This document shows, in pieces, positions 8,135 to 45,748 of a DNA stretch of 48,028 nucleotides (positions are counted from its first letter, which is position 1; every line of letters begins with the position of its first letter). The position numbers were made by a program, and so were the translations under genes. The notes beneath the pieces are model-generated. The model saw only the letters and a program-made list of their open reading frames with translations, made no database searches and was not told the DNA's origin. The DNA is from Bacillota bacterium. GTDB lineage: Bacteria; Bacillota_A; Clostridia; Lachnospirales; WQUN01. The stretch is from contig WQTQ01000234.1 of NCBI GenBank assembly GCA_009786175.1, forward strand, positions 1 through 48,028, given 5' to 3'.

Positions 8135-8175
8135 TACCCCCTGATATCGCATTCACAATGTGATATCAGGGGGTA
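8135..8175. repeat. dispersed palindromic repeat, copy 1 (long form)
   Basis: Two 19-base arms starting TACCCCCTGATATC enclose a CAC loop. The only non-Watson-Crick position is one G-T pair (G-U in RNA). It lies between convergent genes and is followed on the plus strand by TAGTTTTT, so this copy could work as an intrinsic terminator for the nucleotidyltransferase gene. It is the only copy with a T-run. Confidence 0.9.
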
Positions 8176-8200
8176 GTTTTTGAATTTCGAATTATATTGT

Positions 8201-9067
8201 TTAATTCAGCCCCAAAGCGGCCAATCTTTCCCGGAGGAAATCTGCGGCCATGCGGATGTCCGCTTCGGGTGTGTCTCCAACTTCTCTTTCGATGGTAAGG
8301 AAGCCATTAAAGCCGATTTCGTTAAGGGCGCGCAAGTAATCGTCCCATTTTACGCCACCTTTGCCCAGGGGAACTTCTTCCCATTTTAGTGGGTTGGCAG
8401 ACAGTTGCAGACCGTCTTTGGCATGGGTATGGACAATATATTTGCCCAATGTGTGTACGCCTTTTACAGGGTCGTCTGCCACAACCATAACCAGGTTTGC
8501 AGGGTCGTAGTTAACCCTTACGCCGCCTGCGCCAAGGCTGTCTAGGAATTCCAGTAAAACTTGTGCTGTTTCCGGGCCGGTTTCTACGGCAAAGGCAGAA
8601 CCGATAGAGTCCGCGTAAAGTGCCAGCTCGCGGCAGGCTTTGCGCATTACTTCTTTTTTGGCGTTTTCTTCTGTGGGGACTACGCCGATGTGGGTTGTTA
8701 CCACATCGCATTCAAGCATTTTCGCCAAGTCCATGATACGTTTAGAGCGTTCTACCCGATCTTTGTTATCTTCCTCGTTTTCAAAGCCGTGGCCGCCCAA
8801 GTCGCCACAGATGGCGGAAAATACCATGCCGTGGCTTTTTACAAGGTCAAGCCATTCTTTTACAAGGGCAGGGGTCATGTTTTCCGGTGCCAGTTCGCCA
8901 AAAGACGCATAAGCTTGTATACCCTTTGCACCGACGCTTGCGGCCATCGGTACTGTCATTTTTAGCGGGCTGTCCAAACTGCGTTTCGCGCCTTGATGGT
9001 CTTGAGGTACTCTAAGAGCGGGGTCGCTTAGAAAACTTTCCAGCATCGCGCCTATTTTCATTGCCAT
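8201..9067 (-). CDS. Sugar phosphate isomerase/epimerase (xylose isomerase-like TIM barrel)
   Basis: This 288-residue cytosolic protein is of the AP-endonuclease-2/xylose-isomerase-like TIM barrel family (PF01261). Such enzymes isomerise or epimerise keto-sugars, or dehydrate inositol derivatives. Likely metal ligands and barrel strands are visible in 'VVTTHIGVVPTEE', 'FAVETGPETAQVL', 'VRVNYDPANLVM', 'YIVHTHAKDG' and 'FLTIEREVGD'. These are the Glu, Asp, His and Glu positions of the family, in order. ATG 9067 follows TAGGAGG. It is the last gene of an eight-gene operon, 17 bases after a Gfo/Idh gene. The pairing suggests sequential oxidation and isomerisation of a sugar or polyol. The exact substrate is unknown. 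Confidence 0.88.
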   Translation of the reverse strand: MAMKIGAMLESFLSDPALRVPQDHQGAKRSLDSPLKMTVPMAASVGAKGIQAYASFGELAPENMTPALVKEWLDLVKSHGMVFSAICGDLGGHGFENEEDNKDRVERSKRIMDLAKMLECDVVTTHIGVVPTEENAKKEVMRKACRELALYADSIGSAFAVETGPETAQVLLEFLDSLGAGGVRVNYDPANLVMVVADDPVKGVHTLGKYIVHTHAKDGLQLSANPLKWEEVPLGKGGVKWDDYLRALNEIGFNGFLTIEREVGDTPEADIRMAADFLRERLAALGLN

Positions 9068-9084
9068 GTTATTTCCTCCTAAAA

Positions 9085-10137
9085 TTAAGATAACGGAATT
9101 TCTTTATGCTGCTCTGCAGAATCGTAAATTGCCTGCATTAGCTGAGCGGTTACAATGTTAGTGTCAATATGTGATGCCAATTTTTCGCCTGTTTTTATGC
9201 AATTTACAAATGCGTCAATTTCGTTTTGAAAATGGTCGCGGGTTTCAATTTCGGGCTTTTCTGTTACCAGCTTGCCGTCTGCTGTGGAGTAGAATGTAAA
9301 GCCACCGCCATATTGAAGACGGATGCCGCCTTTATCACCGATAAAATCAATATACTGCTCGCCTGTGCCAATATTTTCTGCCCAGGCACCGTTAATGGTA
9401 ATGGTAGGCCCATTGGTGCGGATCATGGCGGTTACGGAATCGTCAACGTCATAAATGCCGTCCAAGGTTGGCGGCCCTGCCCACATAGACTCAAAAACAT
9501 AATTTGGTATATCTTTGCCCAAAACACAAAATGCTTCGGCAGAAACGGTGTTAACTTTAGGGTCGCCACAGCAATACATAACGATGTCTAAGTAATGGAC
9601 ACCCCAGTCAATTAGCGCGCCGCCGCCGGCAATTGCCTTTGTGGTAAATGCACCGCCAAGCCCGGGAATAGAGCGATGGGCGCGGAAACTTGCGTATACG
9701 CGGTACACATCACCAAGTTTGCCTTCGTCGATGTATTTTTTGATAAGGTTAACATTGTCGTTAAACCTATTTACAACGCCTATGTTAAGTGTCATGTCTG
9801 TTTCATTTTGCACTTTTTTCATTTCAAGTGCTTCCGCATAGGTGCGTGCTGCAGGTTTTTCGCATAAAACATGCTTGCCTGCGCGCATTGCGGCAATAGA
9901 AATTTCTGCATGTACATTATTTGGCGTACATACGGAAATTGCTGTAACTTCCGGGTCTGCCAAAACTTCTTTATAATTGGTAACGGCAGTGCCGCAGCCG
10001 TATTCTTTTACTGCTTTCTCTGCCCTTTCGGGAATAATGTCACAAAAATACTTAATTTCTACATCCGGATTATTCATGTACGATGGGATGTGCGCCGCGT
10101 TGGCGATTGTTCCGCATCCGATAATTGCAACCTTCAT
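9085..10137 (-). CDS. Gfo/Idh/MocA family NAD(P)-dependent oxidoreductase
   Basis: This 350-residue oxidoreductase has an N-terminal Rossmann fold ('KVAIIGCGTIANAAHIP', residues 2-18) and the family EKP motif ('GKHVLCEKPAARTYAEA'). The C-terminal alpha/beta domain carries 'GGGALIDWGVHYLDIVMYC', with the D and H typical of the catalytic triad. The family oxidises or reduces sugars, inositols and their derivatives. ATG 10137 is preferred over an upstream start at 10158 because AAGGAGGG lies between them. The gap to the preceding gene, a divergent member of the same superfamily, is 10 bases. The two may act as partners or on successive steps. Confidence 0.9.
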   Translation of the reverse strand: MKVAIIGCGTIANAAHIPSYMNNPDVEIKYFCDIIPERAEKAVKEYGCGTAVTNYKEVLADPEVTAISVCTPNNVHAEISIAAMRAGKHVLCEKPAARTYAEALEMKKVQNETDMTLNIGVVNRFNDNVNLIKKYIDEGKLGDVYRVYASFRAHRSIPGLGGAFTTKAIAGGGALIDWGVHYLDIVMYCCGDPKVNTVSAEAFCVLGKDIPNYVFESMWAGPPTLDGIYDVDDSVTAMIRTNGPTITINGAWAENIGTGEQYIDFIGDKGGIRLQYGGGFTFYSTADGKLVTEKPEIETRDHFQNEIDAFVNCIKTGEKLASHIDTNIVTAQLMQAIYDSAEQHKEIPLS

Positions 10138-10147
10138 AATACCCTCC

Positions 10148-10981
10148 TTATACCGCAACCCAGAGCCCCGGGGCTTTTTCTGCTTTTAGTGCGGCTTCTA
10201 TTACCGCTATGCCTGTGATTGTTTCCTCGTGTGTAACCGATGCGTTGCCTGTTTTAAAGAAATTAACCATATCCGCAGCAAAGTTTTTTGCATAGGTGTC
10301 GCCGGTAATTAATGTTTTTGCGGAACCGTCTTTGAAAACAACGGCCATTCCGAAGGGGCAGCCCCAAGCATGGTGTGAAACAATAGCCCTACGCCCGTCA
10401 TTAAACTCGCAAACATATGATTGATATTGCTCGGTACCGGTAAACATAACCCTTGTCATGCCTGTCCCCATCAAGTAAATAATCGGTTCAATTTGATGAA
10501 CGCTGTATGTTTCTATACGGCCTGCACCAAAGCTTACTGCATTTACAACCGTGTCTCTGCCAACATCCAAATATTCTTGCGCAAAACGCAAACCGGATGC
10601 AGAATAGCAAGGGGTACCGCTTTCTTTTGCCCAACTGAAAATACGCTGTGCAATTTCCTTTGTCTCTGCAAAAGTTTTGTCTACATACACGGGCTTGCCG
10701 CTTTTTAGGGGAACCCTGCAAAGCTCTTCGTGATGTTCTGGGTTATCCGGAGACAATACAACAATTGCGTCGCTTTTTTCAACCAATTCTTCGATAGAAT
10801 TAATACGCTGAACGTTAAATTTTGCGCACCATTCATCTGTGGTCATTCCTCCGTTTGGGTGGTCAATCATTGCGTAAGCATACGCAAGTTCAATTTCGCC
10901 GCCGGATGCTTCATCAAGCCACGCAGGGAAATTATTTGCGTGCCACTCATCCAAAAAATAATCGACAAAACCAATTTTCAT
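10148..10981 (-). CDS. Divergent Gfo/Idh/MocA-like protein
   Basis: This 277-residue protein is shorter than a normal Gfo/Idh member (about 330-370). The N-terminus ('MKIGFVDYFLDEWHANNFP') lacks the GxGxxG dinucleotide loop. The following part resembles the family ('SDAIVVLSPDNPEHHEELCRVPLKSGKPVYVDKTFAET', with a DKT in place of EKP). The second domain is abbreviated but contains 'YSVHQIEPIIYLMG', matching the His of the C-terminal domain. It may bind NAD poorly, or act as a non-oxidising partner of the gene downstream. ATG 10981 follows GAGGAG. A 46-base gap precedes it, the largest inside this operon, with a weak GCAAAT/ATTTGC inverted repeat. Confidence 0.75.
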   Translation of the reverse strand: MKIGFVDYFLDEWHANNFPAWLDEASGGEIELAYAYAMIDHPNGGMTTDEWCAKFNVQRINSIEELVEKSDAIVVLSPDNPEHHEELCRVPLKSGKPVYVDKTFAETKEIAQRIFSWAKESGTPCYSASGLRFAQEYLDVGRDTVVNAVSFGAGRIETYSVHQIEPIIYLMGTGMTRVMFTGTEQYQSYVCEFNDGRRAIVSHHAWGCPFGMAVVFKDGSAKTLITGDTYAKNFAADMVNFFKTGNASVTHEETITGIAVIEAALKAEKAPGLWVAV

Positions 10982-11027
10982 TAATTTTGCTCCTCTCGTT
11001 TTTATCATTTATCTTTAATGCAAATGA

Positions 11028-12110
11028 TTAATATTTGCCAAGTTCAAGGCCTTTTTCAATAAAATATTTCAATGTTTCGTACTCTACTTCCGGTGGGATA
11101 GAATGATCACTGTGCAGGCAATACCCGTAATTTTGCTTCAATATTGGAATTTTTGCTTCAAGCTCCCGGTCGATGGCGGCCCTGTCGTTTGCGCACAAGA
11201 ACCGGACATCCATACCGCCCATAAGACTTAGAACTTCTCCGTATTGTTTAAAAATGCGAATAGGATCCATACCCGCCTTTATTTCTATGGCTTGCAAGCA
11301 GTCTACACCGGCTTTTACAATGCCCGGGAGCAGGGGCTCGATGAACCCGCAGATGTGCATGATAACCGGTATATTGCGATGGTGGGCAAAATCGACCGTG
11401 CGTTTATGAGCTGGGTAGATAAGCTCGTTATACATATCCGGGGACATAAACGGACGGTTTTTAAAGCCCATATCTTCATAGTACCAAATACCGTCCGGCG
11501 GGCCTTCTTTGGCGAATAAAATTTCTTGCAACTGTAACGTCAAGTCGGAATAAACCTGCACCATGTCACGTATCCAGTCCGGGTCAAGTGCCATGCCCAT
11601 CAGCATGTATTCATGCCCGCACACTGGGTGCATTTGCTCAAATACATTAACACCGCACCAGCAGAAAAATTTGTTCCCTTCTTTCGCTTTTGCCTTTGCT
11701 TCACGGTATGCGGCAAAATTTATACGCCGTTCGTCTATGTTAATTAATTTTTCGCGTATTTCATTCCATTGGCTGCGTTCCTTCACTACATAGTCTACAT
11801 TTTCCGGTGTGGCACTTTTGCCTTTAAACCAGCGTAAAATCGCGCCGTTTCCGTTTTTTACAAGACGCGTTTTTTCTGTTTCTTCCACTATTTCGTCTTT
11901 GAAATCCAAGTCTGCAACACAGTTAAACACCCAAGACTCTACAATGTCCAGGTTAAAGTGACTTCTTACGTCTTCACCCGGTTTCAGGTGCCCTTGCGCA
12001 GTATATGCAGCCTGAGTTTCGCCCCAGAATGTCTCGTAACAGCCGATACGGTCTGCGGGTTCCCGTTTTAACATGCGCCTGATACGCTCGTGACTTGTTA
12101 ATTGCGACAT
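11028..12110 (-). CDS. Uroporphyrinogen decarboxylase (URO-D) family protein, probable methyltransferase type
   Basis: This 360-residue TIM barrel is of the URO-D/CmuA/MtbA superfamily. The heme-pathway HemE is unlikely because no porphyrin genes are near and the N-terminus ('TSHERIRRMLKREPADRIGCYETFW') is the form seen in corrinoid-dependent methyltransferase relatives. The barrel centre shows 'VIMHICGFIEPLLPGIVKAGVDCLQAIEIKAGMD' and a C-terminal 'LHSDHSIPPEVEYE'. The 'H.CG' is the usual substrate or zinc site region. No corrinoid protein or reactivase is adjacent. ATG 12110 is chosen for AAGGAGG upstream. Its presence with isomerase and Gfo/Idh genes suggests demethylation or decarboxylation of a sugar-derived or methoxylated compound; that is inference. 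Confidence 0.82.
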   Translation of the reverse strand: MSQLTSHERIRRMLKREPADRIGCYETFWGETQAAYTAQGHLKPGEDVRSHFNLDIVESWVFNCVADLDFKDEIVEETEKTRLVKNGNGAILRWFKGKSATPENVDYVVKERSQWNEIREKLINIDERRINFAAYREAKAKAKEGNKFFCWCGVNVFEQMHPVCGHEYMLMGMALDPDWIRDMVQVYSDLTLQLQEILFAKEGPPDGIWYYEDMGFKNRPFMSPDMYNELIYPAHKRTVDFAHHRNIPVIMHICGFIEPLLPGIVKAGVDCLQAIEIKAGMDPIRIFKQYGEVLSLMGGMDVRFLCANDRAAIDRELEAKIPILKQNYGYCLHSDHSIPPEVEYETLKYFIEKGLELGKY

Positions 12111-12127
12111 AAAAACAGCCTCCTTTT

Positions 12128-13171
12128 TTAATTTACATCCCACTCATAAATATTAATAAACCGCTGACCTTCCTTGTATAGGTCACTCCACTCCGGCAGG
12201 CGGACCATTTTGCCTACGTGCCGTGTGCCCAATTTTTCGCATACCCGCCGGGACGGAATATTTGTATAGTTGTTGGTGATAAGAAGTTTTGTCATTTTGT
12301 GGGCCTTTGCAATGGGCAGCAAAAGTTTGCAGGCCTCTACGGCGTAACTGTTGCCCCGGTGTTCTTCGTTCACGTTGTAACCAACTTGCCCGCCATAGTA
12401 CAAATTATCGTTTTTGGGCCCGCCGCCGTAACCTATACGAAGGCCGGTTTCGCCTATTTTTTCATTATTTTTGCATATGGCAAATGTATATGCAGGTACC
12501 CAATTCTTTTCCGGGTTAGCAGGGCTTTTTTCTATACAGACGAGATAAATACTACCGTTTGAAAGAGTAGGGATGCTAACAAAGTCGTTAAACTCGAAGG
12601 GTAGAGAATTGTAGTAAGCAATTTCCTTTTCTACTTCCCATTCGCTTTTTAGGATTGCGAAAAATGCTTCATCGGTATATCTTCGTTCTGCTTGCTTTTT
12701 TGCAGGATGGGCATCAAAATACAAACCCTCGCGTCGCATACCAAGCTTTTCCATAAGCCTGCACGAAGCAGCATTTTCGGCATCGGTGCTAGAAATAATT
12801 CTGCGGATATTTAGTTCATCAAAACCTAACTCCAGCACTCGTTTTCCCATTTCCGTACCGTAGCCAAGGTTCCAGTAATCGAGGTGTAAAATCCAGCTTA
12901 TTTCTGCCAGGTCGTCACCTATCTTTTTAAGACCGCAATAGCCAATTAATGCACCGGATTCTTTTAACACAACAGCGTACCTATAAGTTTTGCACGGTAC
13001 CTCTTCTGCCAGCTTGATTGATGAGTCAATAAACTCCATTGTTTCGTTTTCTGTATTAGGCCCACGCATATAAAGTACGTTTTCCGGGCAGCTTGCAAAA
13101 CTGTGCACAGCAGTAAAGTCATCTGCACTAAACTTTCTTAAAATAAGCCGTTCGGTTTCAAGTATTTTCAT
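12128..13171 (-). CDS. Tandem GNAT N-acetyltransferase (two domains)
   Basis: The 347 residues hold two GNAT folds. Domain 1 (about 1-165) is RimJ/RimL-like: 'ETERLILRKFSADDF', 'EISWILHLDYWNLGYGTEMGKRVLELGF', 'DAENAASCRLMEKLGMRREG'. Domain 2 (about 180-347) is more divergent: 'GQVGYNVNEEHRGNSYAVEACKLL' and 'NNYTNIPSRRVCEKLG'. Both keep the acetyl-CoA beta-bulge/helix region ('LGYG' and 'RGNS'). RimJ-type enzymes acetylate protein N-termini or small molecules; the target here is unknown. It lies 12 bases after the HIT gene in the tdh operon. A single GNAT is about 170 residues, so this is a genuine duplication or fusion. Confidence 0.88.
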   Translation of the reverse strand: MKILETERLILRKFSADDFTAVHSFASCPENVLYMRGPNTENETMEFIDSSIKLAEEVPCKTYRYAVVLKESGALIGYCGLKKIGDDLAEISWILHLDYWNLGYGTEMGKRVLELGFDELNIRRIISSTDAENAASCRLMEKLGMRREGLYFDAHPAKKQAERRYTDEAFFAILKSEWEVEKEIAYYNSLPFEFNDFVSIPTLSNGSIYLVCIEKSPANPEKNWVPAYTFAICKNNEKIGETGLRIGYGGGPKNDNLYYGGQVGYNVNEEHRGNSYAVEACKLLLPIAKAHKMTKLLITNNYTNIPSRRVCEKLGTRHVGKMVRLPEWSDLYKEGQRFINIYEWDVN

Positions 13172-13183
13172 TGGCGTACTTCC

Positions 13184-15269: not shown

Positions 15270-15273
15270 TTGT

Positions 15274-16323
15274 CTATTCTCCCCAGTTCAAAATCACCTT
15301 ACCGGATTTTCCGCTTTTCATCAGCTCAAAAGCTTCCGCATACTCTGTGTACGGGAAATGATGGGTGATTACTTTGGCAATTTCTTTTTCCAACCCGGAT
15401 TGCAAAAGGGCAGTCATCCTATACCATGTGTCAAACATCTGCCGTCCGTATATGCCCTTTAATGTAAGGCTGTTGAAAATTACTTTATCCCAATTAATTT
15501 GTACGTCTTTCGGCAGTATTCCCAAAATTGCTATTTTGCCACCGTTGGCCATAACATCTACCATACCGGAAAATGCCTGACCGCTGCCGGACATCTCCAA
15601 GCCTACGTCAAAGCCTTCCTTTATTAGGTCTAGGCTTGCCATTGCATCTTCAAGAGTTTGATGGCGTACATCAACTGTGGCGGTGGCCCCAAGCTCTTTT
15701 GCAAGTTCCAGCCGCTGGGGGTTAATGTCGGAAACAACAATACTTCTTGCCCCGGCCCGTTTTAAGATTGGCACAGACATTAGCCCGATAGGCCCTGCGC
15801 CCGTAACCAGCACATCTTCGCCCAGCACATTAAATGAAAGGGCAGTATGAGTGGCGTTGCCCAGTGGATCTGATATGCTGTGGATATTTTCCGAAATATT
15901 GGGGTCGCAAATCCACAAATTACTTGCGGGGAAAGCGATATATTGAGCAAATACCCCGTCCATGTTAACACCTATGCCAACCGTTTGGCGGCAAAGGTGT
16001 GGGTAGCCCGTTATACAGTGGCGGCACTTGCCGCAAACAATGTGCCCTTCGCCCGTTACAAGTTGGCCAACTTTTACATTGGCAACGTACATGCCGGTTT
16101 CTACAACTTCCCCAACAAATTCATGCCCCATTATTTGCGGCGTAACAATGTTTTTCTGCGCCCAATCATCCCAGTTGTAAATGTGAATGTCTGTACCGCA
16201 TATGGCGGTTTTTTTTACTTTTATAAGCACCTCGTGGTGCTTAATAGTGGGATAAGGTACGTCTTCCAGCGTAAGGCCGTTTGGAGCGTTTACTTTTTTT
16301 ACAATAGCTTTTGTAGTTTTCAT
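15274..16323 (-). CDS. tdh: L-threonine 3-dehydrogenase
   Basis: Tdh is a zinc-dependent medium-chain dehydrogenase that oxidises threonine to 2-amino-3-ketobutyrate with NAD+. The 349 residues fit. The catalytic zinc site C42 ('[13 protein letters not shown]') and H67-E68 ('GHEFVGEV') are present. So are the structural zinc cysteines C97, C100, C103 and C111, and the 'GAGPIGLM' nucleotide loop. '[12 protein letters not shown]' is typical of Tdh and separates it from sorbitol and alcohol dehydrogenases. Start ATG 16323 follows CCGGAGAG. It is the first gene of the eight-gene operon reaching to 8201, with kbl next. No strong promoter was recognised between it and the palindromic repeat upstream. 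Confidence 0.94.
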
Positions 16324-16365: not shown

Positions 16366-16386
16366 TACCCCCTGATATCAGGGGGT
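16366..16386. repeat. dispersed palindromic repeat, copy 2 (collapsed form)
   Basis: A perfect 20-bp palindrome, ACCCCCTGATATCAGGGGGT (16367-16386), with no loop. It lies between the transposase remnant and tdh. No T-run follows on either strand. Confidence 0.9.
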
Positions 16387-16409
16387 GGTAATGCTAATTT
16401 TTCTGCTTT

Positions 16410-16895
16410 TCATACCCGTCTATTACGCGGCTTAGGCACTTCAACAAATGTTGCGTCTACCAAGGTGCCTTCACGCTTTACTACCCCGTTTGCAGTAAGC
16501 AGCTCATTAAACAAGTCAAACAATTCCCGCATTCCTTCTTTGCCCATTTTTTGCTTGAACAACCATATCGTACTCGCGTCCGGTGATTTTTCGCCCAATT
16601 CCATATTTAAAAAACGCTGAAAACTCAGACGGTCATTTACAAGATATTCTACTCTGCTGTCCGACAAATTGTTCAGGTGTTGTAACAGAGTTATTTTAAA
16701 CAGCTTAAGTTCATCTATAGGCGGCCTGCCGCCTTTAGAATTGGTTCCTTTCCGAATACGCTTGTGGATTGGCTCGCGGAATACTTCCCAATCGATTGCC
16801 TCATTTAGCTTTTGAAGCGGGTCGCCAAGTTTTGTCAGTCTTTCAAGCTGTACATCCGCTCCGTACATCATCAATTGCTTGCTCATACACATCAC
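16410..16895 (-). pseudogene. IS5-type transposase remnant (N-terminal part only)
   Basis: 161 residues remain of a DDE transposase of the IS5/IS1182 type. The DUF772-like N-terminal domain is present ('KLFKITLLQHLNNLSDSRVEYLVND', 'FLNMELGEKSPDASTIWLFK'), as is the start of the catalytic domain with the first aspartate in 'LVDATFVEVPKPRNRR'. The frame then stops. A complete enzyme has about 320-340 residues, so the part carrying the second Asp and the Glu is missing and this copy cannot transpose. The break lies within about 25 bases of the copy-2 palindrome. The 5' end overlaps the 3' end of the phospholipase-like gene in another frame. No terminal inverted repeats were found. Confidence 0.85.
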
Positions 16896-26167: not shown

Positions 26168-26932
26168 TTATCGCACTAACGGCAGTTTGTCCAGAAAATA
26201 CGCGACATTTAATAAAACAAGTCCTTCCGGCGGCATAGTTTTACCGGCACGTTTCCTGTCTTTGGAAGCAATTATCGCCAAAATATCGGTAGATGAAATC
26301 TTACCCATCCCTACATACACCAGCGTTCCCGCGAGTATCCGTACCATATTATACAAAAACGCGTTGCCCGTTACAGTTAAAGTTATAATATTATTTGTAT
26401 GCTTTTCCACACTGCAACAATAAATTTCACGCACTGTTGTTTTCGCACTTGAGCCTGTGGCGCAAAACGCCACAAAATTATGCCGCCCTACGAAAACTTT
26501 AGCGGCTTTTTGCATTTCAGCAACATTAAGGGCTTGAGGAACAAACGCGCTGTACCGAGATAAAAGCGGATTGGGGCAGGGGGCATTGTAAACGCTATAG
26601 GCGTAGGTTTTGTGCTGTGCGTCAAAACGCGGGTTAAAACCCTCCGGTACAGCAATTGCTGCCGTAACAGAAATATCCGGCGGCAAAAGCCCAACAAGTA
26701 CCATGGGAAGTTTATCTAACGGCACACGTAAATCCGGCGCGGTAAAACAAACCCGCTGGCCCTGGGCATGTACACCTGCATCTGTACGGCTTGCGCTGCG
26801 CACTTGAACGGGACGGTTTAGCAATATTGAAAGAGCTTCTTCCAGCTTCTGCTGGACTGCCACGGCATTTTCCTGCCGCTGCCAGCCCGCATAATTTGTT
26901 CCGTCGTAGGCTACAGTTAATAAAATTTGCAT
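26168..26932 (-). CDS. truA: tRNA pseudouridine(38-40) synthase TruA
   Basis: TruA modifies U38-40 in the anticodon arm. The 254 residues hold the catalytic aspartate in 'SRTDAGVHAQGQ', plus 'AYDGTNYAGWQRQ' at the N-terminus and 'FLYNMVRILAGTLVYVG' near the C-terminus, all conserved. Start ATG 26932 follows CAGGAG. It is the first gene of the operon reaching to 19198. Palindromic repeat copy 3 is 28 bases upstream and may lie in the 5' untranslated region. Confidence 0.95.
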   Translation of the reverse strand: MQILLTVAYDGTNYAGWQRQENAVAVQQKLEEALSILLNRPVQVRSASRTDAGVHAQGQRVCFTAPDLRVPLDKLPMVLVGLLPPDISVTAAIAVPEGFNPRFDAQHKTYAYSVYNAPCPNPLLSRYSAFVPQALNVAEMQKAAKVFVGRHNFVAFCATGSSAKTTVREIYCCSVEKHTNNIITLTVTGNAFLYNMVRILAGTLVYVGMGKISSTDILAIIASKDRKRAGKTMPPEGLVLLNVAYFLDKLPLVR

Positions 26933-26959: not shown

Positions 26960-27001
26960 TACCCCCTGATATCACATTGACAAATGTGATATCAGGGGGT
27001 A
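26960..27001. repeat. dispersed palindromic repeat, copy 3 (long form, perfect)
   Basis: Two perfectly complementary 19-base arms flank a GACA loop, in the gap between divergent truA and the MBOAT gene. No T-run on either side, so it is not a classical terminator here. Confidence 0.92.
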
Positions 27002-27136: not shown

Positions 27137-28726
27137 ATGCTGTTCACATCTACAAATTTCTTAATGTTTTTGGCTGTACTGTTTGTATTGTACCAGCTGT
27201 TTCCCCAAAAGCACCGCTGGTTTGTATTACTGGCGGGTTCTATGACCTTTTACGGTTTTGCCGGGCATAGCTTTTTAGTTTATATTTGTGCTACAATTGT
27301 GACAACTTTCTTTTGTACAATACGCATCAAGAGCTTGGTTGCTAAGCGGGATGAATTTGCTGCAAGTACAGATGATAAAGAAGTGAAGAAAGTATTTAGG
27401 TTAAAAACGAAATCTGCATGTAAAAAGTGGTTTATTGCAGGGCTGGTTTTCAATTTTGGTATTTTATCGGTTGTTAAGTACGCCGATTTTGCAATTGGAA
27501 ATACAAATGCGTTGCTGCAATGGGCAGGCAGCGGTACACGTTTTACTTTTATGCACTTCGCTTTACCAATGGGTATTTCATTTTATACCTTTCAAACCAT
27601 GGGGTATTTAATTGATGTTTACCGCGAAAAAGTAAAGCCTGAAACCAACCTGTTTAAACTCGCGCTTTTTACATCCTTCTTCCCGCAAATAATTCAAGGC
27701 CCTATCAGCCGTTTTGGCGAGTTGTCTCAAACACTTTACAATGGCGACCCTTTACGCTGGCATAGCTTTTGGCGCGGGGCGCAGCGGATTTTAATAGGTT
27801 TTTTTAAGAAATTAGTAATTGCCGACAGGCTTTGGCCTGCACTGGAAACACTTACCGCAACCCCTGCAGAATATCGCGGCGCATATTATCTTTTTAGTAT
27901 TGGGCTGTACGCAATTATCCTTTTCTGCGACTTTACCGGCGGTTTGGATATTACAATAGGTATCGCAGAAATGTTTGGCATAAAACTTGCGGAAAACTTC
28001 AAACGTCCGTTTTACGCCAGGTCTATTCAGGAATACTGGCAGCGGTGGCACATAACAATGTACACCTGGTTCAGGGATTATGTTTTTTATCCAATGTCCG
28101 TAGGCAAGTCTATGCTGCGCTTTACAAAATTTGCACGAAGAATATTTGGAGATTTTATAGGCAAGCGTATGCCCCTTCATGTGTCGCTGCAGTTCGTGTG
28201 GTTTTTAACGGGGCTTTGGCACGGGGCCACCTGGAATTTTATTGCCTGGGGTATGGCCAATGGTATTGTTATTGCAATTTCATTAGAGTTTCAGCCGCTG
28301 TACAAAAAGTTTCACACTAAATTTCCGTGGGCAGAAAAATTTTGGGTTTACCGCTGCTTCCAAATATTCCGCACATTTTGGCTTATGAATATGATCCGCT
28401 CCTTTGATATTTATGTTGGGGTAGGGAACACTTTACGCATGATGCTGTCCGTTTTTACAGATTTCGATTTAAGCGGGTTTTTATACAGAGGTGTTTCAGA
28501 TTTAGGACTGGAATATTCGGCCTACATCAGTGCCGGGGCAGGGCTGTTGGTTCTGTTTTGGGTTAGTTACCTTGGCCGCGGCGAAGTTGATTTCCGTGAC
28601 CGTATCGCAACGTACAGCTGGCGCACCGGGTATGTAATATTCGGAATAATTTTGCTTATGGTAATAATTTTAGGGGCGTACGGCATTGGATATGATGCCC
28701 GCCAATTTATTTATAATCAATTTTAA
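27137..28726 (+). CDS. MBOAT-family membrane O-acyltransferase (AlgI/DltB-like)
   Basis: This 529-residue polytopic protein is of the membrane-bound O-acyltransferase family, which moves acyl groups across the membrane to O-acetylate surface polysaccharides. Family marks are 'FALPMGISFYTFQTMGYLIDVYR', 'FFPQIIQGPISRF', 'FCDFTGGLDITIGIAEMFGI', 'RSIQEYWQRWHITMYTWFRDYVFYP', and the catalytic His region 'FLTGLWHGATWNFIAWG'. Eleven or so helices are visible. ATG 27137 follows AGGAG at about 10 bases. It is first in a plus-strand operon. The next two genes (SGNH-like, lipoprotein) are probable partners, as in the alg and pat O-acetylation systems. Confidence 0.93.
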   Translation: MLFTSTNFLMFLAVLFVLYQLFPQKHRWFVLLAGSMTFYGFAGHSFLVYICATIVTTFFCTIRIKSLVAKRDEFAASTDDKEVKKVFRLKTKSACKKWFIAGLVFNFGILSVVKYADFAIGNTNALLQWAGSGTRFTFMHFALPMGISFYTFQTMGYLIDVYREKVKPETNLFKLALFTSFFPQIIQGPISRFGELSQTLYNGDPLRWHSFWRGAQRILIGFFKKLVIADRLWPALETLTATPAEYRGAYYLFSIGLYAIILFCDFTGGLDITIGIAEMFGIKLAENFKRPFYARSIQEYWQRWHITMYTWFRDYVFYPMSVGKSMLRFTKFARRIFGDFIGKRMPLHVSLQFVWFLTGLWHGATWNFIAWGMANGIVIAISLEFQPLYKKFHTKFPWAEKFWVYRCFQIFRTFWLMNMIRSFDIYVGVGNTLRMMLSVFTDFDLSGFLYRGVSDLGLEYSAYISAGAGLLVLFWVSYLGRGEVDFRDRIATYSWRTGYVIFGIILLMVIILGAYGIGYDARQFIYNQF

Positions 28727-37760: not shown

Positions 37761-38445
37761 TTGGGTAATTAAAACGGAAAACCTGGAGAAAATTTACGGT
37801 TCCGGTAAGAAAGCGAAAACACATGCGCTAAGGGGCGTTAGCCTGGAAATACCACGGGGTTCACTATGCTGTATAGTGGGGCCTTCCGGCCATGGGAAAA
37901 GTACGCTGCTACAGTTAATCGGCGGCTTAGACAAACCCACCAAAGGCAGCGTAATAATAGACAACACAGATATTTCACGGCTAAGTGACAACAAACTTTC
38001 TGAAATTAGGGGCGAAAAAATAGGCTTTGTATTCCAATCGTTTAACCTGTTGGACAACCTTACAGCCCTTGAAAATATTCAAACTGCCATGATGTTTGCC
38101 CCGGGTAAGCCCCACGGTGGTGATACAAAAAAGCGGGCACTTGAGTTACTGGACATTGTTGGCCTGCGGAACAAGGCAGACTCTAAGCCAAGCGAGCTTT
38201 CCGGCGGGCAGGTTCAGCGGGTTGCCGTTGCCAGAGCATTGGCCAATGACCCGCCAATATTGCTTATGGACGAGCCTACCGGTAACTTAGATTCAACTTC
38301 CGAACAAGAGGTGCTGGAGTATATTTTAGGCGTCCACAAAACAGGAAAAACAATTGTTATCGTCACCCATAATAGGGAACTTGCCAAACACGCGGAAATC
38401 ATAATAGAAATCCGTGACGGGTTAAAGGTTGCAAACGAGGAGTAA
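37753..38445 (+). CDS. ABC transporter ATP-binding protein, LolD/MacB type
   Basis: A 230-residue ATPase with Walker A 'GPSGHGKST' (43-51), Q-loop Q95 ('VFQSFNLL'), signature LSGGQ (149-153), Walker B 'ILLMDEP' (169-175) and H-loop His in 'IVTHNREL'. It is the type that drives MacB/FtsX permeases. The ATG overlaps the permease stop by 8 bases. The Walker A has His in place of the usual Ser or Cys (GxSGxGKS), which is within family variation. Confidence 0.95.
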   Translation: MCDWVIKTENLEKIYGSGKKAKTHALRGVSLEIPRGSLCCIVGPSGHGKSTLLQLIGGLDKPTKGSVIIDNTDISRLSDNKLSEIRGEKIGFVFQSFNLLDNLTALENIQTAMMFAPGKPHGGDTKKRALELLDIVGLRNKADSKPSELSGGQVQRVAVARALANDPPILLMDEPTGNLDSTSEQEVLEYILGVHKTGKTIVIVTHNRELAKHAEIIIEIRDGLKVANEE

Positions 38446-38452
38446 AACTTCA

Positions 38453-39364
38453 ATGGATTTTAAGTTAACAAACACGCAAATAAATAACTTCGTCGAATGC
38501 TGGGGTAATAAATTTTACCAAAAAGTATTAGACGATATAAAAACGTACTCGGAAAAATGGAAGCTCACGGACATTACGTTTCACGAATATTACTCGATTA
38601 ACGCCATATTTTTCTGCAAATCCAAGATATACGGCGATTGCGTGTTAAAACTGGGCGGCAACGATCAAGATACAGAGTTTGTAGGCGAGTACAATGTCTT
38701 GCGTGAATATGACGGCAGAAAGTATGTAAAAGTGTATGAGTGTGACATCCACATAGCAAGCCGAAAGAAAGCCATGCTTATCGAACGCTGCATCCCCGGT
38801 ATAATGCTGAGTAAAGAGCCCTCTCTTGAAAAAAGGCTGGAGGTTTTTTCCCGGTTGTACAGCGGGCTGCATATAAAGCCCGGCAACCCGGAAATATACC
38901 CTTCATACACAAAATGGATTTGCGATACAGCAAAAAAATGCACCAACACCACCCGTGATTTAAAAGGGCTGGATGCGCATATGAAAAACGCGGAAAAAAT
39001 CTATCTTGAAATATGTGAAAAATACAACCGGCAAATGCTGCTGCACATAGACATATTTGGCGCGAATATTGTTAGCGTTAACGACGGATACAAGCTTATC
39101 GACCCGAAAGGCGTCACAGGCGACCCGATATTTGAAACCGGGCAGTTTATTTTTGCAGAGTGCTGCGAAGACAGCCTGCAGCCCGAAAACGCGGAAATTA
39201 TGTTTAACTACCTTGAGAAAAGCATAGGCATTCCTAATGAAATTTTACGGCAGTGTTTCTATATCGAAACAATAAGATTCCTGTGCTACGAAGGGGTAAT
39301 ACCCGACGGCGTGTCGGATTGGGATGTGGAAAGGGCTAATTTTGCATACGGGCTTACCCCCTGA
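38453..39364 (+). CDS. APH(6)/hydroxyurea-type aminoglycoside phosphotransferase-like kinase
   Basis: The 303 residues form a eukaryotic-like kinase fold of the APH_6_hur/APH family. The catalytic loop is 'LHIDIFGANIV' (HxDxxxxN) and the metal aspartate lies in 'LIDPKGVTGDPIFE'. The N-lobe includes 'CVLKLGG', with the ATP-anchoring Lys, and a Glu in 'EFVGEYNVL'. Relatives phosphorylate streptomycin or small metabolites; resistance is possible but untested. ATG 38453 is chosen for GAGGAG 10 bases upstream. The gene lies 7 bases after the ABC ATPase gene. Its last residues and TGA stop are supplied by the palindromic repeat that overlaps its 3' end, so the original C-terminus may have been altered. 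Confidence 0.78.
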   Translation: MDFKLTNTQINNFVECWGNKFYQKVLDDIKTYSEKWKLTDITFHEYYSINAIFFCKSKIYGDCVLKLGGNDQDTEFVGEYNVLREYDGRKYVKVYECDIHIASRKKAMLIERCIPGIMLSKEPSLEKRLEVFSRLYSGLHIKPGNPEIYPSYTKWICDTAKKCTNTTRDLKGLDAHMKNAEKIYLEICEKYNRQMLLHIDIFGANIVSVNDGYKLIDPKGVTGDPIFETGQFIFAECCEDSLQPENAEIMFNYLEKSIGIPNEILRQCFYIETIRFLCYEGVIPDGVSDWDVERANFAYGLTP

Positions 39365-39376
39365 TATCAGGGGGTA
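39355..39376. repeat. dispersed palindromic repeat, copy 4 (collapsed form)
   Basis: A perfect 22-bp palindrome built on CCCCCTGATATCAGGGGG with TA at both ends. The TGA (39362-39364) is the stop codon of the kinase gene. It lies between convergent genes, 15 bases before the tadA stop. Confidence 0.92.
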
Positions 39377-39390: not shown

Positions 39391-39849
39391 TCACCCACGA
39401 AACCGCGTAAAAAAATCCGACATTAACACCGCGCATTCTTCTTCGCGTACACCTTCAATTACTTCCACTCTATGGTTAAAGCGCGGCTCGTTTAAAATGT
39501 CCAAAATGGACCCGGCGCAACCGGCTTTGGGGCTTTTTGCCCCGTAAACTACCGTTGGTATCCTTGCCTGGACTATGGCCCCTGCGCACATGGGGCATGG
39601 TTCCAGGGTTACATACAAAGTGCAGTCTTCCAGCCGCCAGTCGCCAATGGCCTGGCAGGCTTGGTCTATCGCCATAATTTCCGCGTGGTACAGCACATTT
39701 TTACGGGCGGCCCTCTCGTTTGCGGCAGAGCCTATTACTTGCCCGTTGTGTACAATTACACAGCCGATTGGTACTTCGCCATTGTCAAAAGCTCTGCGCG
39801 CTTCCGCCAGAGCTTTTGACATGAAATGACTATGACCGTTGTGCGCCAT
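39391..39849 (-). CDS. tadA: tRNA(Arg) adenosine-34 deaminase TadA
   Basis: TadA converts A34 to inosine in tRNA-Arg(ACG). The 152 residues include the zinc/catalytic motif H55-A-E57 and 'PCPMCAGA' (C85, C88), plus '[17 protein letters not shown]'. All are typical of TadA rather than cytidine or guanine deaminases. The ATG overlaps the end of guaB by 20 bases. The RBS is weak, so coupling to guaB is likely. Confidence 0.94.
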
Positions 39850-41332: not shown

Positions 41333-41362
41333 TGTTATCGCCTCCTTAGTTTATTGTTGTCC

Positions 41363-41391
41363 ATTATACGAACAAGCCGGGGAAAGGTCAA
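41363..41391 (-). promoter_or_regulatory. strong promoter of guaB-tadA
   Basis: Minus strand: TTGACC (41386-41391), exactly 17 bases, TATAAT (41363-41368). The leader is only about 24 bases, so no purine riboswitch fits between promoter and guaB. Confidence 0.8.
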
Positions 41392-41408
41392 ACTTTTTCC
41401 AAAAACTA

Positions 41409-41437
41409 TTGCAAATACGCAAAAATGAATCTACACT
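41409..41437 (+). promoter_or_regulatory. promoter of the GH116 gene
   Basis: TTGCAA (41409-41414), 17 bases, TACACT (41432-41437). The -35 boxes of the two divergent promoters are 17 bases apart. Confidence 0.55.
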
Positions 41438-41469
41438 GGATACAAAATTAAACTTTGGAGCTGAGACAA

Positions 41470-43902
41470 ATGAAAACTTACGACCGTACCGCAACTGCCG
41501 CAAAGTTCTTACTTGGCGGCATTGGAACAGGCAATATTTCCTTAGACCAAAACGCGCGACTATGCGATTTCGAGCTTTGGAACAAGCCCAACAAAGGCTT
41601 TAGAAGCCCTTATACCTTTTTTGCCGTAAGAACAGAATCCCAAGACGGTGAAGTAAAGGCAAAGGCTTTAGAGTCTCAACTTGCGCCCCCGTTTGACAAT
41701 TCTCACGGGGCTCATACTTGGGAACTGGGCGGGCTGCCCCGTTTCCGCAACTCGGAAATGCGCGGCCAATATCCTTTCGTAAATTACAAGCTTACAGACA
41801 GTCATATGCCTGTTGAAGCCAAGTTGGAAGCTTTTACGCCCCTTATCCCCCTGGCCACAGATGATTCATCTTTGCCGGTGGCGGTGCTGCGGTATTCCAT
41901 AAAAAATATCACAAACGGGCCTTTGACCGTAAGCGTGGCAGGCTCTATGTCAAACCTTTGCGGTATAAAAGGTTTTGACGCATGGACAAAACCCCTTTAC
42001 AAAGATAAGGGCATAAACAAATATGTAGAAAACAGAAAGCTCCGGGGCATTCATTTCTCTGCCGAAAATAAAACAGAAGCGGATTTGGACTATTTTGAAA
42101 TGGCTATGGTGACCACGGAAAAGCAAGGCGTAACATATTTAGATTACTGGAACGAAGAAGCCTGGTGGGATGGCTTACAAGATTTTTGGACAGATTTTAC
42201 CCATGACGGCGAACTTACACTTGGACGTAAACTGCCGGGTATCGGCAACAAGGTGCATACGGCGGATATTTCCATGGGCTCTGTATGCGTGAAAAAGGAA
42301 ATTGCCGCCGGGGAAGAGACTGCATTCGACTTTATCATAAGCTGGTACCACCCAAACAGAGTAAAGTCGTGGCACCAAAACCCGCCCGCGCCAAAAGCTT
42401 CCGCTTCCTGCTGCGGCGATACCGGCTGCTGCCCACCAGAAGACAAATCCTACATTATCCGCAATTACTACGCAAAATTTGGGCCGCCGCTGCGCACCGC
42501 AGAGTACCTGATTGACAACATAGAATGGCTGGAAGGGCAAAGCCGCAGTTTTTCCAACGCCCTTATGGGCGGAACTATGCCCGAATATGCCCTTGACGCA
42601 GTGCTTTCCAACGTTACCGTAATACGCAGCAACACCTGTTTTCGGGTGGAAGACGGCACATTTTTTGGATGGGAAGGCTGTTTCGACTCCGGAGGCTGCT
42701 GTGACGGCAACTGCAGCCATGTGTGGAACTATACCCAAACAATGGCATATCTTTTCCCGGACCTGGAACGCTCTATGCGGGAGACGGAATTTTTGTATGA
42801 AACCGAAGAAGACGGCAGGCAAAGCTTCCGCGCGCTCAACTACTTGCATGGCCACGGACACCATTCCATGCCCCCTGCCACAGACGGGCAGCTTGGCACA
42901 ATCATCCGCCTGTACCGGGATTGGAAACTGTGCGGCAACGACGTATTCTTAAAAAAACTGTGGCCAACGGCCAAACTGGCCCTGGAGTACGCCTTCACCC
43001 ACTGGGACATTGACGGCGACGGCCTTATGGAGGGCGAGCAGCACAACACCTACGATATAGAATTTTTTGGCGTAAGCAGTATGCTTAATTCCATATTTTT
43101 CGCAGCCCTTCGCGCAGGGGAAGAAATGGCCCGCTACCTAGGCGATACCGAAAGCGCGGATAAATACGCGGAAATTATGACAAAAGGGTCTAAAAAATTG
43201 GACGAGCTTACCTTTAACGGGGAATTTTATGTACAAAAATTGGACAACGTAAACGACTATAAATACCAGTACGGCCAGGGCTGCCTTGCGGACCAATTAC
43301 TTGGCCAGCAGCTTGCCCACGCATGTGGCCTTGGTTATGTGCTGGATAAAAACAACGTAAAATCTGCGGTGCATTCCATTTTCAAGTACAACTTTATTGA
43401 AGATTTCAGCGACTTTGCCAACGTGCAGCGTCTGTTCGCCCTTAACCAAAATAAAGGGCTTTTGCTGTGCAGCTGGCCAAACGGCGGCCGCCCCATAATT
43501 CCGTTTGTATACAGCGACGAGGTGTGGACAGGAATTGAATACCAAGTGGCGTCCCACCTAATTTATGAGGGCCTGGTTGACGAAGGGCTAAAAATTGTAG
43601 AAGCCTGCCGCGCCCGTCACGATGGCATTGAGCGCAACCCTTGGAATGAAGTTGAATGCGGGCACCATTATGCCAGGTCGCTGGCAAGCTATGGGGTATT
43701 GCTGGCACTTACCGGGTTTAACTGCGACGCCGTAAATAAGACGTTGAAGTTTAACCCGGCAATTAACCAAGACAATTTCAGCGGGTTCTTCTGCTGCCCA
43801 AGCGGCTGGGGCATTTACTACCAGGAAAGAGCAGGGGACGGCACCTTGAATAAGAGAATAGAGACATTGTATGGGGATTTGAGCGGGTATGAGGTAGTCT
43901 AA
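41470..43902 (+). CDS. GH116-family beta-glycosidase (non-lysosomal glucosylceramidase-like)
   Basis: The 810 residues comprise an N-terminal beta-sandwich domain (about 1-350) and a C-terminal (alpha/alpha)6 DUF608 domain. GH116 enzymes cleave beta-glucosides or beta-xylosides and include human GBA2. By alignment of motifs with GBA2 (E527, D677), the likely nucleophile is E402 in 'FFGWEGC' and the acid/base D529 in 'GEQHNTYDIEFFG'; this is pattern-based. 'NCSHVWNYTQTMAYLFPDLERSMR' is the typical block after the nucleophile. A Cys-rich loop (C314, C315, C320, C321) is odd and may bind a metal. No signal peptide, so probably intracellular. ATG 41470 lies 9 bases after GGAG. A large inverted repeat follows. 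Confidence 0.9.
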   Translation: MKTYDRTATAAKFLLGGIGTGNISLDQNARLCDFELWNKPNKGFRSPYTFFAVRTESQDGEVKAKALESQLAPPFDNSHGAHTWELGGLPRFRNSEMRGQYPFVNYKLTDSHMPVEAKLEAFTPLIPLATDDSSLPVAVLRYSIKNITNGPLTVSVAGSMSNLCGIKGFDAWTKPLYKDKGINKYVENRKLRGIHFSAENKTEADLDYFEMAMVTTEKQGVTYLDYWNEEAWWDGLQDFWTDFTHDGELTLGRKLPGIGNKVHTADISMGSVCVKKEIAAGEETAFDFIISWYHPNRVKSWHQNPPAPKASASCCGDTGCCPPEDKSYIIRNYYAKFGPPLRTAEYLIDNIEWLEGQSRSFSNALMGGTMPEYALDAVLSNVTVIRSNTCFRVEDGTFFGWEGCFDSGGCCDGNCSHVWNYTQTMAYLFPDLERSMRETEFLYETEEDGRQSFRALNYLHGHGHHSMPPATDGQLGTIIRLYRDWKLCGNDVFLKKLWPTAKLALEYAFTHWDIDGDGLMEGEQHNTYDIEFFGVSSMLNSIFFAALRAGEEMARYLGDTESADKYAEIMTKGSKKLDELTFNGEFYVQKLDNVNDYKYQYGQGCLADQLLGQQLAHACGLGYVLDKNNVKSAVHSIFKYNFIEDFSDFANVQRLFALNQNKGLLLCSWPNGGRPIIPFVYSDEVWTGIEYQVASHLIYEGLVDEGLKIVEACRARHDGIERNPWNEVECGHHYARSLASYGVLLALTGFNCDAVNKTLKFNPAINQDNFSGFFCCPSGWGIYYQERAGDGTLNKRIETLYGDLSGYEVV

Positions 43903-43911
43903 AACATTTTA

Positions 43912-43986
43912 CTCACAGAGGTACAGAGAACACGGAGAAAACCGGTGATAATCATCATTTCTCTGTGAACTCTGTGCCTCTGTGAG
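43912..43986. repeat. long imperfect inverted repeat, CACAGAG-rich
   Basis: Two 29-base arms (43912-43940 and 43958-43986) starting CTCACAGAGG flank a 17-base loop. In RNA, 25 positions pair by Watson-Crick, two are G-U, and AA/AA makes one 2x2 internal loop. It lies between the convergent GH116 and CPBP genes. The CACAGAG wording recalls repeats noted in many environmental bacteria, from memory only. No T-run follows. Confidence 0.88.
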
Positions 43987-44093
43987 AGAATTATTTTAAC
44001 TTTCACTTTTCCGAAACAAAAACATGACACGCCATTCAGCGCAGAACTTGATTTTCAAAAGGGAACATTGAGAGTAGATACCATGTGATATAG

Positions 44094-44807
44094 TTATTCT
44101 GATTGCTTTCCCGGGCGCGAAAACATAGCCGGTAAGTTCACAAAAAAATGTAACACCATCGGAAGAATCAAGCTGCCCGAAGCTAGAAACAATGACATGA
44201 GAAGCATTCCAATTACTCCCGTTTCAATTATACCTTCCAACCCTTGGTATATGTGTGCCAAACCAAAAACTACGCCAGTAATTAATATGACAAGAAAAAT
44301 TGAATTTCCGGGAAAAACAGCTTGTAGAAGAAACGCCGTAAATCCCCGGAACATCATTTCTTCACACATTGCCGAACTAAAATTAAGCAGGAGGAACATT
44401 TTTCTTTCTTTTGCCGTTTCCGGAAGTACCTGCTCTGTTACGGAATCTGTAACCGGTTTTTCTTTACTTTTCTTTTTTACCAGCGATGAAACGAGAGCCC
44501 ATATGAAATAGATAAGCACCAACCCGCACACAACAAGGGTTATGGTTGTAAACCAAACATTATTGTGCAAGCTTACCGGCCTAAATCCAAGGTCTGCAAA
44601 GCTTATGTTACCGACAAAAGACATAACTAAAACGGCTAATGCCGTCCCCCAAAGATACACAATTGCCCGAATATAGCCCTTATGCCTTACTTTTTCCGTA
44701 TCTATAACATCATTGGGCCTGTTTTTAGTTTTTTTCAAACGCAAATCATTGTATACGCATGTTACAATAATGCTAAGCACAAATAATGCCAGAAACGTGA
44801 TGTACAT
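44094..44807 (-). CDS. CPBP-family intramembrane glutamic protease
   Basis: This 237-residue polytopic membrane protein is of the CAAX protease/bacteriocin-processing (CPBP, Abi) family. The motif set is complete: EE at 149-150 with R154 ('CEEMMFRG'), H185 ('FGLAHIYQG') and H220/N224 ('LHFFVN'). Six or so helices are visible, with an acidic/basic cytosolic loop (about 110-135). Such proteins process bacteriocins or confer immunity, or act in protein secretion control. No bacteriocin gene is in the window. It starts 15 bases after the XRE regulator gene, behind GGAGG, and is probably controlled by it. Confidence 0.9.
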   Translation of the reverse strand: MYITFLALFVLSIIVTCVYNDLRLKKTKNRPNDVIDTEKVRHKGYIRAIVYLWGTALAVLVMSFVGNISFADLGFRPVSLHNNVWFTTITLVVCGLVLIYFIWALVSSLVKKKSKEKPVTDSVTEQVLPETAKERKMFLLLNFSSAMCEEMMFRGFTAFLLQAVFPGNSIFLVILITGVVFGLAHIYQGLEGIIETGVIGMLLMSLFLASGSLILPMVLHFFVNLPAMFSRPGKQSE

Positions 44808-44822
44808 TGTTCGTCCTCCAAT

Positions 44823-45596
44823 TTAAGGTTCGTTTTCAACAAACTCGATAAATTTTTTCACAATCCGCTTGTAACGAGGGTTGTCATTTAATACTTCAAA
44901 AGAGGAAAACCCATACAGGTCAAGGAGCATACCGGCCTTGACTGCCTGTTCGTTGATTACCGACGCATCAGCTTCATGACGGTTTAACCATTTGCTAACA
45001 TCGGTAAAGAAGTCATCCCCTTTGATTGTAAACGGAAAAAACTTAGTGGTGCAAAAATCCAAGTATTTTTCGAGAAGTTCAAGGGCATTTTCCAAATCCC
45101 CATGCTTACAATACATATCCGCGCCAATTAAGTATGCTTTTGCCATAATGTCCGGGTCTAATTTGCCAATATTGAACAAGCGAACCAGTCCCATTACCCT
45201 GTTATACGCTGTCTGAGCCGCATCGAAATCATCATCAAGCAGGTATACATACTCCACCAGCAATTCAGCCAAATGCAGTAAAAAATTATGTATATCGCAT
45301 TGATACACTTCTTTAGCTTTCACTTTGTTTCCCGCAAGCACAAACGCCTGTGCAATCAAACTGCCTTCATTAAGTGGCCGTGCGCTTATAGACTCACCCA
45401 ACAACGCAAAAACATCATTTACGTTAAAAAATGCCGCCAAGCGCGGCAACAGGGTAATGTCGGGGTAGCTTTGTTTTTTCTCCCATTTAGATACGGCGGC
45501 TTTCGACACACCCATGTGTTCGGCTAATTCTAATTGGGTAATACCCTTATCGCCCCGTTTTTTAATGATAATGTCCGCAATTTGTAATTTGTTCAC
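44823..45596 (-). CDS. XRE-family transcriptional regulator with TPR-like C-terminus
   Basis: The 257 residues open with a helix-turn-helix (about 7-60: 'GITQLELAEHMGVSKAAVSKWEKKQSYPD'), of the Xre/SinR type. A helical C-terminal region of repeat-like segments (about 75-250) follows, probably TPR-like as in Rgg or PlcR-related regulators that sense peptides; the ligand is unknown. ATG 45596 has GGAGG upstream. The promoter contains a 17-bp perfect palindrome overlapping its -35 box, a likely autoregulatory operator. It forms a pair with the CPBP protease downstream. Confidence 0.85.
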   Translation of the reverse strand: MNKLQIADIIIKKRGDKGITQLELAEHMGVSKAAVSKWEKKQSYPDITLLPRLAAFFNVNDVFALLGESISARPLNEGSLIAQAFVLAGNKVKAKEVYQCDIHNFLLHLAELLVEYVYLLDDDFDAAQTAYNRVMGLVRLFNIGKLDPDIMAKAYLIGADMYCKHGDLENALELLEKYLDFCTTKFFPFTIKGDDFFTDVSKWLNRHEADASVINEQAVKAGMLLDLYGFSSFEVLNDNPRYKRIVKKFIEFVENEP

Positions 45597-45648
45597 ATCA
45601 AAACCTCCATAAAAATTTTACAATGAAGTGCTTTTTATTGGCAAGGGA

Positions 45649-45679
45649 ATTATAGTTTACTTCAGGCAACAAAAGTCAA
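45649..45679 (-). promoter_or_regulatory. promoter of the XRE-CPBP unit
   Basis: Minus strand: TTGACT (45674-45679), 19-base spacing, perfect TATAAT (45649-45654). The long spacer may need activation or lower basal strength. Confidence 0.5.
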
Positions 45680-45691
45680 CCATAGGTTGAC
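45675..45691. promoter_or_regulatory. operator-like palindrome
   Basis: GTCAACC-ATA-GGTTGAC, a perfect 7+7 inverted repeat with 3-base centre, covering the minus-strand -35 box of the XRE regulator gene. Confidence 0.65.
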
Positions 45692-45707
45692 AGTTCCTGA
45701 ATTACAC

Positions 45708-45748
45708 TACCCCCTGATATCATGTTAGCAATATGATATCAGGGGGTA
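45708..45748. repeat. dispersed palindromic repeat, copy 5 (long form)
   Basis: 19-base arms around an AGC loop, with one G-T (G-U) position. The inner part differs from copies 1 and 3, yet pairing is kept. It lies between vanW and the XRE promoter. Confidence 0.9.

Follow-up and report, generated by a model that had tools for sequence, protein, structure and literature searches.

Dispersed REP-like palindromes with a constant core in a Clostridia contig and a Defluviitaleaceae genome

Among the described systems closest to the palindromes treated here, Correia and RUP elements are miniature inverted-repeat transposable elements (MITEs) with a TA target. Repetitive extragenic palindromic (REP) sequences and bacterial interspersed mosaic elements (BIMEs), as excerpts of PMC3733652 describe them, are palindromes of 20-40 bp that lie mostly 3' of open reading frames (ORFs), where neighbouring genes converge or run in the same direction, and that often contribute a stop codon. 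The same excerpts and those of PMC2817692 give the REP tag as GTAG (or CGTC) at one palindrome end and tie the repeats to such tags and to REP-associated tyrosine transposases (RAYTs). In a 48,028-nucleotide stretch of DNA from a Bacillota bacterium (contig WQTQ01000234.1, hereafter the window) a sequence-only reading had pointed to five palindromes with a common core. All five are present at the positions it named, and its view of them as a dispersed intergenic family is supported. The units, short palindromes of 22 bp or long ones of 41-42 bp, resemble REPs in size, in their placement and in the stop codon that one of them supplies. By the tag and, as far as tested, by the RAYT they are not REPs, and we call the family REP-like.

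GTAG stands at the 3' foot of four of the ten window arms, and neither GTAG nor CGTC is present as a fixed tag. A search for Y1/RAYT transposases (PF01797), in which the E. coli positive control was detected, found none in six genomes, namely Defluviitaleaceae bacterium Lab288P1bin22 (G001), which also carries the palindrome, and five of its kin; G032 and G024, two relatives described below, were not searched. A Pfam scan of 40 of the 47 window ORFs likewise gave no RAYT/Y1. In the long forms of the window, unlike in REPs and BIMEs, a frozen core encloses an inner stem that varies. These tests agree with the earlier remark that the repeat was not recognised as a member of a named REP, BIME or MITE family. 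Rfam gave no gathering-score match in the window, and no paper mentioning the 18-mer CCCCCTGATATCAGGGGG was found in the literature searched.

Core and forms of the palindrome

The element common to all ten window arms is the 14-base TACCCCCTGATATC, with a sole deviation of one base at 16387. The arm limits are sharp: the 14 positions agree in 9-10 of the ten arms, and outside them agreement drops immediately to 6 of 10 or fewer. The 18 identical bases that had been ascribed to all five copies occur contiguously, as CCCCCTGATATCAGGGGG, at two window sites only (16368-16385 and 39357-39374), which are those of the short copies; the other three copies are long forms. The argument that such an 18-mer would not recur by chance holds, since none of 100 shuffles reached two occurrences. 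The short form is TACCCCCTGATATCAGGGGGTA at 39355-39376, limits that are kept from the earlier description, and its other copy, whose limits are corrected from 16366-16386 to 16366-16387, differs from it by one end base (TG for TA). The long form consists of TACCCCCTGATATC, 13-14 nt and GATATCAGGGGGTA (three copies; 0 of 100 shuffles). Its inner bases pair too, and folding gives strong hairpins, with 19-21 pairs in the stem and 3-4 nt in the loop.

All arms in the window are paired, with no single one left over, and the copies are undecayed: the five are perfect, and there is no pair with only one mismatch, nor any in which one arm has two mismatches and its partner is exact. Beyond the unit itself the copies have no common flanks. 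The long form holds GATATC twice as a direct repeat, and removal of one GATATC together with everything between the two converts it, letter for letter, into the short form. Because the short form is the exact product of a slippage deletion from GATATC to GATATC, we infer that the short copies arose from long ones by slippage between these repeats. When the five long forms of the window (three) and of G001 (two) are compared, 14 of 19 pairs are invariant, and three pairs are changed on both sides with pairing kept.

Placement at gene ends and the hairpin reading

The ORF lists used here are purely mechanical and were made without a gene caller. By the list for the window, intergenic sequence makes up 3.9% of it and holds all five copies, with a 10-nt overlap for copy 4 (Table 1); for five random placements of the same lengths, the joint probability of all being intergenic is about 3e-8. 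The description of the copies as intergenic is therefore right for four of them, which lie wholly between ORFs, and has to be amended for copy 4, which covers the last 10 nt of an ORF and supplies its TGA stop. In G001, too, an arm gives the stop codon to ORFs in three loci (L207, L210 and L217). Copies 1, 2, 4 and 5 lie 8, 22, 0 and 4 nt from the nearest gene end, and copy 3 has none beside it. Four of the five are thus within 22 nt of a gene end; for comparison, random placement in the intergenic sequence comes within 25 nt of one in 27% of cases. The extragenic location, mostly downstream of genes, that characterizes REPs is thus found in the window copies, 5/5 between ORFs and 4/5 at a gene end. 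At copy 4 the ORF end was compared with those of 15 homologues (chosen from 116 hits), whose ends range from one alignment column before it to three after it. Copy 4 therefore sits close to the natural end of this gene, which is compatible with an insertion or with none.

Table 1. Coordinates of the palindrome copies and other features; positions without a locus label are those of the window
Feature	Position	Strand	Form or nature	Setting
Copy 1	8135-8175 (stem extends to 8133-8177)		long form	between convergent ORFs 7644-8126(+) and 8201-9067(-)
Copy 2	16366-16387		short form, TG instead of TA at one end	between ORFs 16410-16895(-), truncated DUF772 transposase, and 15274-16323(-), threonine dehydrogenase
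Copy 3	26960-27001		long form	between divergent ORFs 26168-26932(-), TruA, and 27137-28726(+), MBOAT/DltB-like
Copy 4	39355-39376		short form	between convergent ORFs 38429-39364(+), APH(6)-like kinase, and 39391-39849(-), TadA
Stop codon TGA	39362-39364	+	inside copy 4	ends ORF 38429-39364
Copy 5	45708-45748		long form	4 nt past the end of VanW-like ORF 45753-46397(-)
Terminator-like hairpin with T-run	45675-45691	-	consensus match	separate, 17 nt beyond copy 5
Imperfect inverted repeat	43900-43998		41 nt, 80%, rich in CACAGAG/CTCTGTG words	
Structured RNA, example	L206:149-253	-		
Structured RNA, example	L280:1326-1433			
Structured RNA, example	L281:1445-1550			
Structured RNA, example	L282:1521-1627	-		
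Structured RNA, example	L286:1312-1418			

We tentatively favour, at somewhat less than an even chance, the reading of these elements as a REP-like family of dispersed hairpins that are placed mostly at gene ends and act as RNA hairpins with a core that is read by its sequence. Most copies would be transcribed at the ends of messages and would work there as RNA hairpins, which would protect or set the message end and, at copies that have a U-tract, could also be intrinsic terminators. The core would be frozen since some component of the cell reads its sequence, and the remaining stem would need only to pair.

Could the copies instead be ordinary intrinsic terminators that share sequence through local duplication? 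They are GC-rich hairpins at gene ends, T-runs occur at copy 1, at several G001 copies and in a family of another relative described below, and in kin without such families strong hairpins are similarly dense (in most of them roughly 1-2 per 10 kb). On the other hand, the core is identical in all copies, copy 3 lies between divergent genes, the flanks outside the unit differ among the window copies, and the hairpins of most sampled genomes are unrelated in sequence. Of the two parts of an intrinsic terminator, a GC-rich hairpin and a U-tract, the hairpin is present, but a U-tract (at least 5 T in 8 nt) occurs in copy 1 only, on both of its sides. Because four of the five copies lack it, they do not look like ordinary terminators, and we consider this explanation doubtful. 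The separate terminator-like hairpin beyond copy 5 is a match to a consensus whose matches are no commoner in the window than in shuffles (33 vs 28.8).

Occurrence in relatives and drift of the stem

By its glycine C-acetyltransferase the window probably belongs to the Defluviitaleaceae, as all nine organism-named entries among 120 listed homologues come from this family; the placement is by this single enzyme, and the named homologues of the APH(6)-like ORF belong to Oscillospiraceae and Herbinix. According to PMC7024585, 67 metagenome-assembled genomes of Defluviitaleaceae were reported from the guts of higher termites. Compared with 38 genomes of the family of G001, the same enzyme is 82% identical in G035, 81% in G037 and 79% in G001, and the palindrome is absent from G035 and G037, the two closest genomes by this measure. 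A count of the 12-mer CCCCCTGATATC over 392 genomes of the order gave 33 for G001 and 0-2 for each of the others (any occurrence in 60 of 392), and among 391 genomes of the class the 18-mer CCCCCTGATATCAGGGGG was found in G001 alone. A palindrome scan of genome contigs returned at least 120 stretches, mostly unrelated hairpins among the matches listed; of the four genomes that were followed from it, only G001 (locus L079) had more than one copy. From the spacing, if representative, the sequence-only reading had suggested hundreds of genomic copies; the window has 5 copies in 48 kb and G001 has 33 arms in 2.9 Mb, which manual grouping assigns to 27 loci (10 before a structured RNA, 5 near contig ends and 12 elsewhere).

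We surveyed 15 genome samples of the kin, including the window (48 kb; the others 80-420 kb), by clustering strong hairpins on shared 9-mers, and counted family patterns with exact arms. No cluster of at least three hairpins appeared in 10 of the 15 samples. G032 (419 kb; L301, L358-L377) has, by pattern, 31 copies of family A, CAGTTGGTCG, 18 of TGGTACC and 9 of CTGAAACGCC, and G024 (80 kb; L398-L401) has 11 copies of AAATCGCGC..GCGCGATTT. These families resemble that of the window in design but are unrelated to it in sequence. A cluster of three hairpins in G036 includes two at contig starts, and a second cluster in G001, three hairpins with an A-run and GCC letters, is taken for chance. When five family patterns were counted in the 15 samples, none crossed genomes except the one shared by the window and G001. 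The hairpin family of another genome extrapolates to about 155 copies genome-wide.

Family A of G032 allows the pairing to be followed in more copies. Its arms are paired in 31 cases and single in two, the pairs comprise 31 perfect ones plus two with one mismatch, and the total length is constant in 31 of 31. Doubly changed cells that still pair number 29, compared with 13.7 in shuffles (0 of 500 shuffles as high), and the covariation score is 0.149, compared with 0.068 in shuffles and no more than 0.065 when the partners are slid. Of the 31 copies, 22 have a stretch with at least 5 T in 8 nt on one or both sides, with a background of 6.8% per stretch of 8. The core of this family appears to be constant while the rest of its stem drifts under pairing, a pattern that argues against both a recent burst of copying and the decay of an old transposon, and that points to a sequence-reading factor together with a requirement for the hairpin.

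Several findings weigh against the reading as gene-end RNA hairpins with a sequence-read core. In the window, copy 3 sits between divergent genes rather than at a gene end, and the U-tract is confined to one copy; the set of five long forms is small, and one pair is broken in two of them. In G001 some copies have a degenerate second arm and at least three arms have no visible partner. For family A of G032, the number of pairs with a double change is 7, which was reached in 109 of 500 shuffles, and the shuffles ignore relatedness; moreover, the search pattern itself fixes part of the constancy of the core. This family also lies away from gene ends (17 distances of 16-516 nt, with a random median of 132; 9 of 31 copies inside crude ORFs), so that the claim on gene ends rests on the window and G001. 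Single arms equal or exceed pairs in G024 (11 vs 11) and in family C of G032 (15 vs 9), and because of these many single arms the hairpins there may be of another kind.

The symmetry of the units could also suggest a palindromic site that is bound on double-stranded DNA, such as an operator or a chromosome-organising site. The dyad symmetry is perfect, the core is fixed, the copies are intergenic, and the total length of family A in G032 does not vary. However, the spacing of the half-sites in the window is either 0 or 13-14 nt, a poor fit to a dimer on double-stranded DNA; variable stem positions change symmetrically (columns 21/27 of family A in G032 read GC 23, CG 7 and UA 1 times), and four of the five window copies lie at gene ends rather than at promoters. 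We regard such a site as improbable, more so than the terminators discussed above.

The fixed short word in inverted pairs between genes recalls the paired DNA uptake sequences of Neisseria and Pasteurellaceae. An uptake word should be frequent singly, yet single arms are absent from the window and number 2 vs 31 pairs in family A of G032. According to the abstract of PMC2346458, such words occur in hundreds to thousands of copies and show patterns within genes. We give this explanation hardly any credence.

Extending the reading as RNA hairpins with a sequence-read core, the core differs between genomes, which suggests that each lineage would have its own "word". As a speculation, and one that we hold to be rather unlikely in its full form, some Defluviitaleaceae might mark gene ends or other places between genes with hairpins, and a factor specific to the lineage, acting on RNA or single-stranded DNA, would read their core; reader and core would co-evolve, giving genome "dialects" of dozens to hundreds of hairpins with a frozen core and a stem that drifts in compensating pairs. 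If this were true, families private to single genomes, with no RAYT in the sole carrier searched, would represent another route to genome-wide hairpin repeats and would point to a reader of hairpins with frozen core and drifting stem. Comparison of carriers and non-carriers of a family could then reveal this reader.

Possible transposition, neighbouring RNA and other observations

Alternatively, the copies could be a minimal REP- or MITE-like element, with two inverted ends and little between them, inserted at TA by a transposase acting in trans and surviving mainly between genes. The sharp limits of the unit would fit, as would TA ends in nine of ten window arms with a preceding pyrimidine in nine of ten, which resembles a Y-TA-R target. 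A preference for Y-TA-R targets is a property of some IS5 and IS630 elements. A truncated DUF772 transposase adjoins copy 2, and G001 hairpins have been copied together with flanks. The units also resemble TA-target MITEs in being small, inverted-repeat, intergenic and TA-flanked, but they are nearly devoid of internal sequence, no partner transposase was found, and TA flanks are missing at several solitary G001 copies and thus not general there. Neither a DUF772 match in G001 nor a Y1 transposase in G001 or the five kin was found, none of the window copies is decayed, and compensating changes are seen in the inner stem but not in the core. No empty site was seen, there being no close relative for comparison: in a search by synteny the kin were too distant, and few window genes aligned in the 10-kb neighbourhoods and other G001 stretches. 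We hold transposition of this kind to be possible, though less likely than the hairpin reading.

The check for a linked transposase or RAYT that had been proposed thus gave a mixed answer, with a transposase of the DUF772 (IS5/IS1182-like) type beside copy 2, of which only the N-terminal part is left, and no Y1/RAYT. Near this fragment no further arm within three mismatches occurs in the window. A general link of the hairpins to DUF772 transposases was rejected, given the lack of a DUF772 match in G001, where the transposase searches covered DUF772 and Y1 only. A spread with phages or plasmids was likewise rejected: the form seen in the window was unmatched, eight viral stretches included none with GATATC in both arms, and the other searches gave best E-values of 2 and 5.

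In G001 many copies have A- and T-runs, unlike those of the window, and hairpins are in places duplicated along with their flanks; the five loci near contig ends have common flanking sequence. Three arms lie within 2.7 kb in one locus (L150:2030-2790 and 4637-4674), with about 14 nt of left flank alike (AATTTATTATATGC-like), which may be a sign of local copying of hairpin plus flank. Another copy (L149:6724-8955) stands inside a transporter-like operon, flanked by two ORFs that by eye resemble those of a lipoprotein-like binding protein and of a permease. REPs are known at such places in transporter operons of E. coli.

Ten G001 copies lie 115-140 nt upstream of a structured RNA, and these ten are all the matches of this RNA in G001. 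It has a multi-branched core of about 106 nt with compensating changes, and in most copies, by eye, a promoter-like stretch precedes the core and a terminator-like hairpin follows it. With a model built from 13 copies, matches at E <= 1e-3 were found in 21 of the 38 genomes of the family, 1-16 in each; only part of the candidates was scored, so these counts are lower bounds, and the E-values are rough. Rfam gave no gathering-score match to the RNA in nine G001 loci carrying it and likewise none in 20 of the 30 loci of the model search, and a permissive search with one copy returned weak matches only (best E 0.17). The window contained no match to the RNA (best E 2.3).

A different hairpin, ACCCCCTGATGTAG..CTACATCAGGGGGT, was seen in Oscillospiraceae (L020:680-720, L003, L047, L053, L076 and others, among the matches listed), often at contig ends. 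In L020 it stands immediately before IS3-like orfA and orfB, as these ORFs were named by eye.

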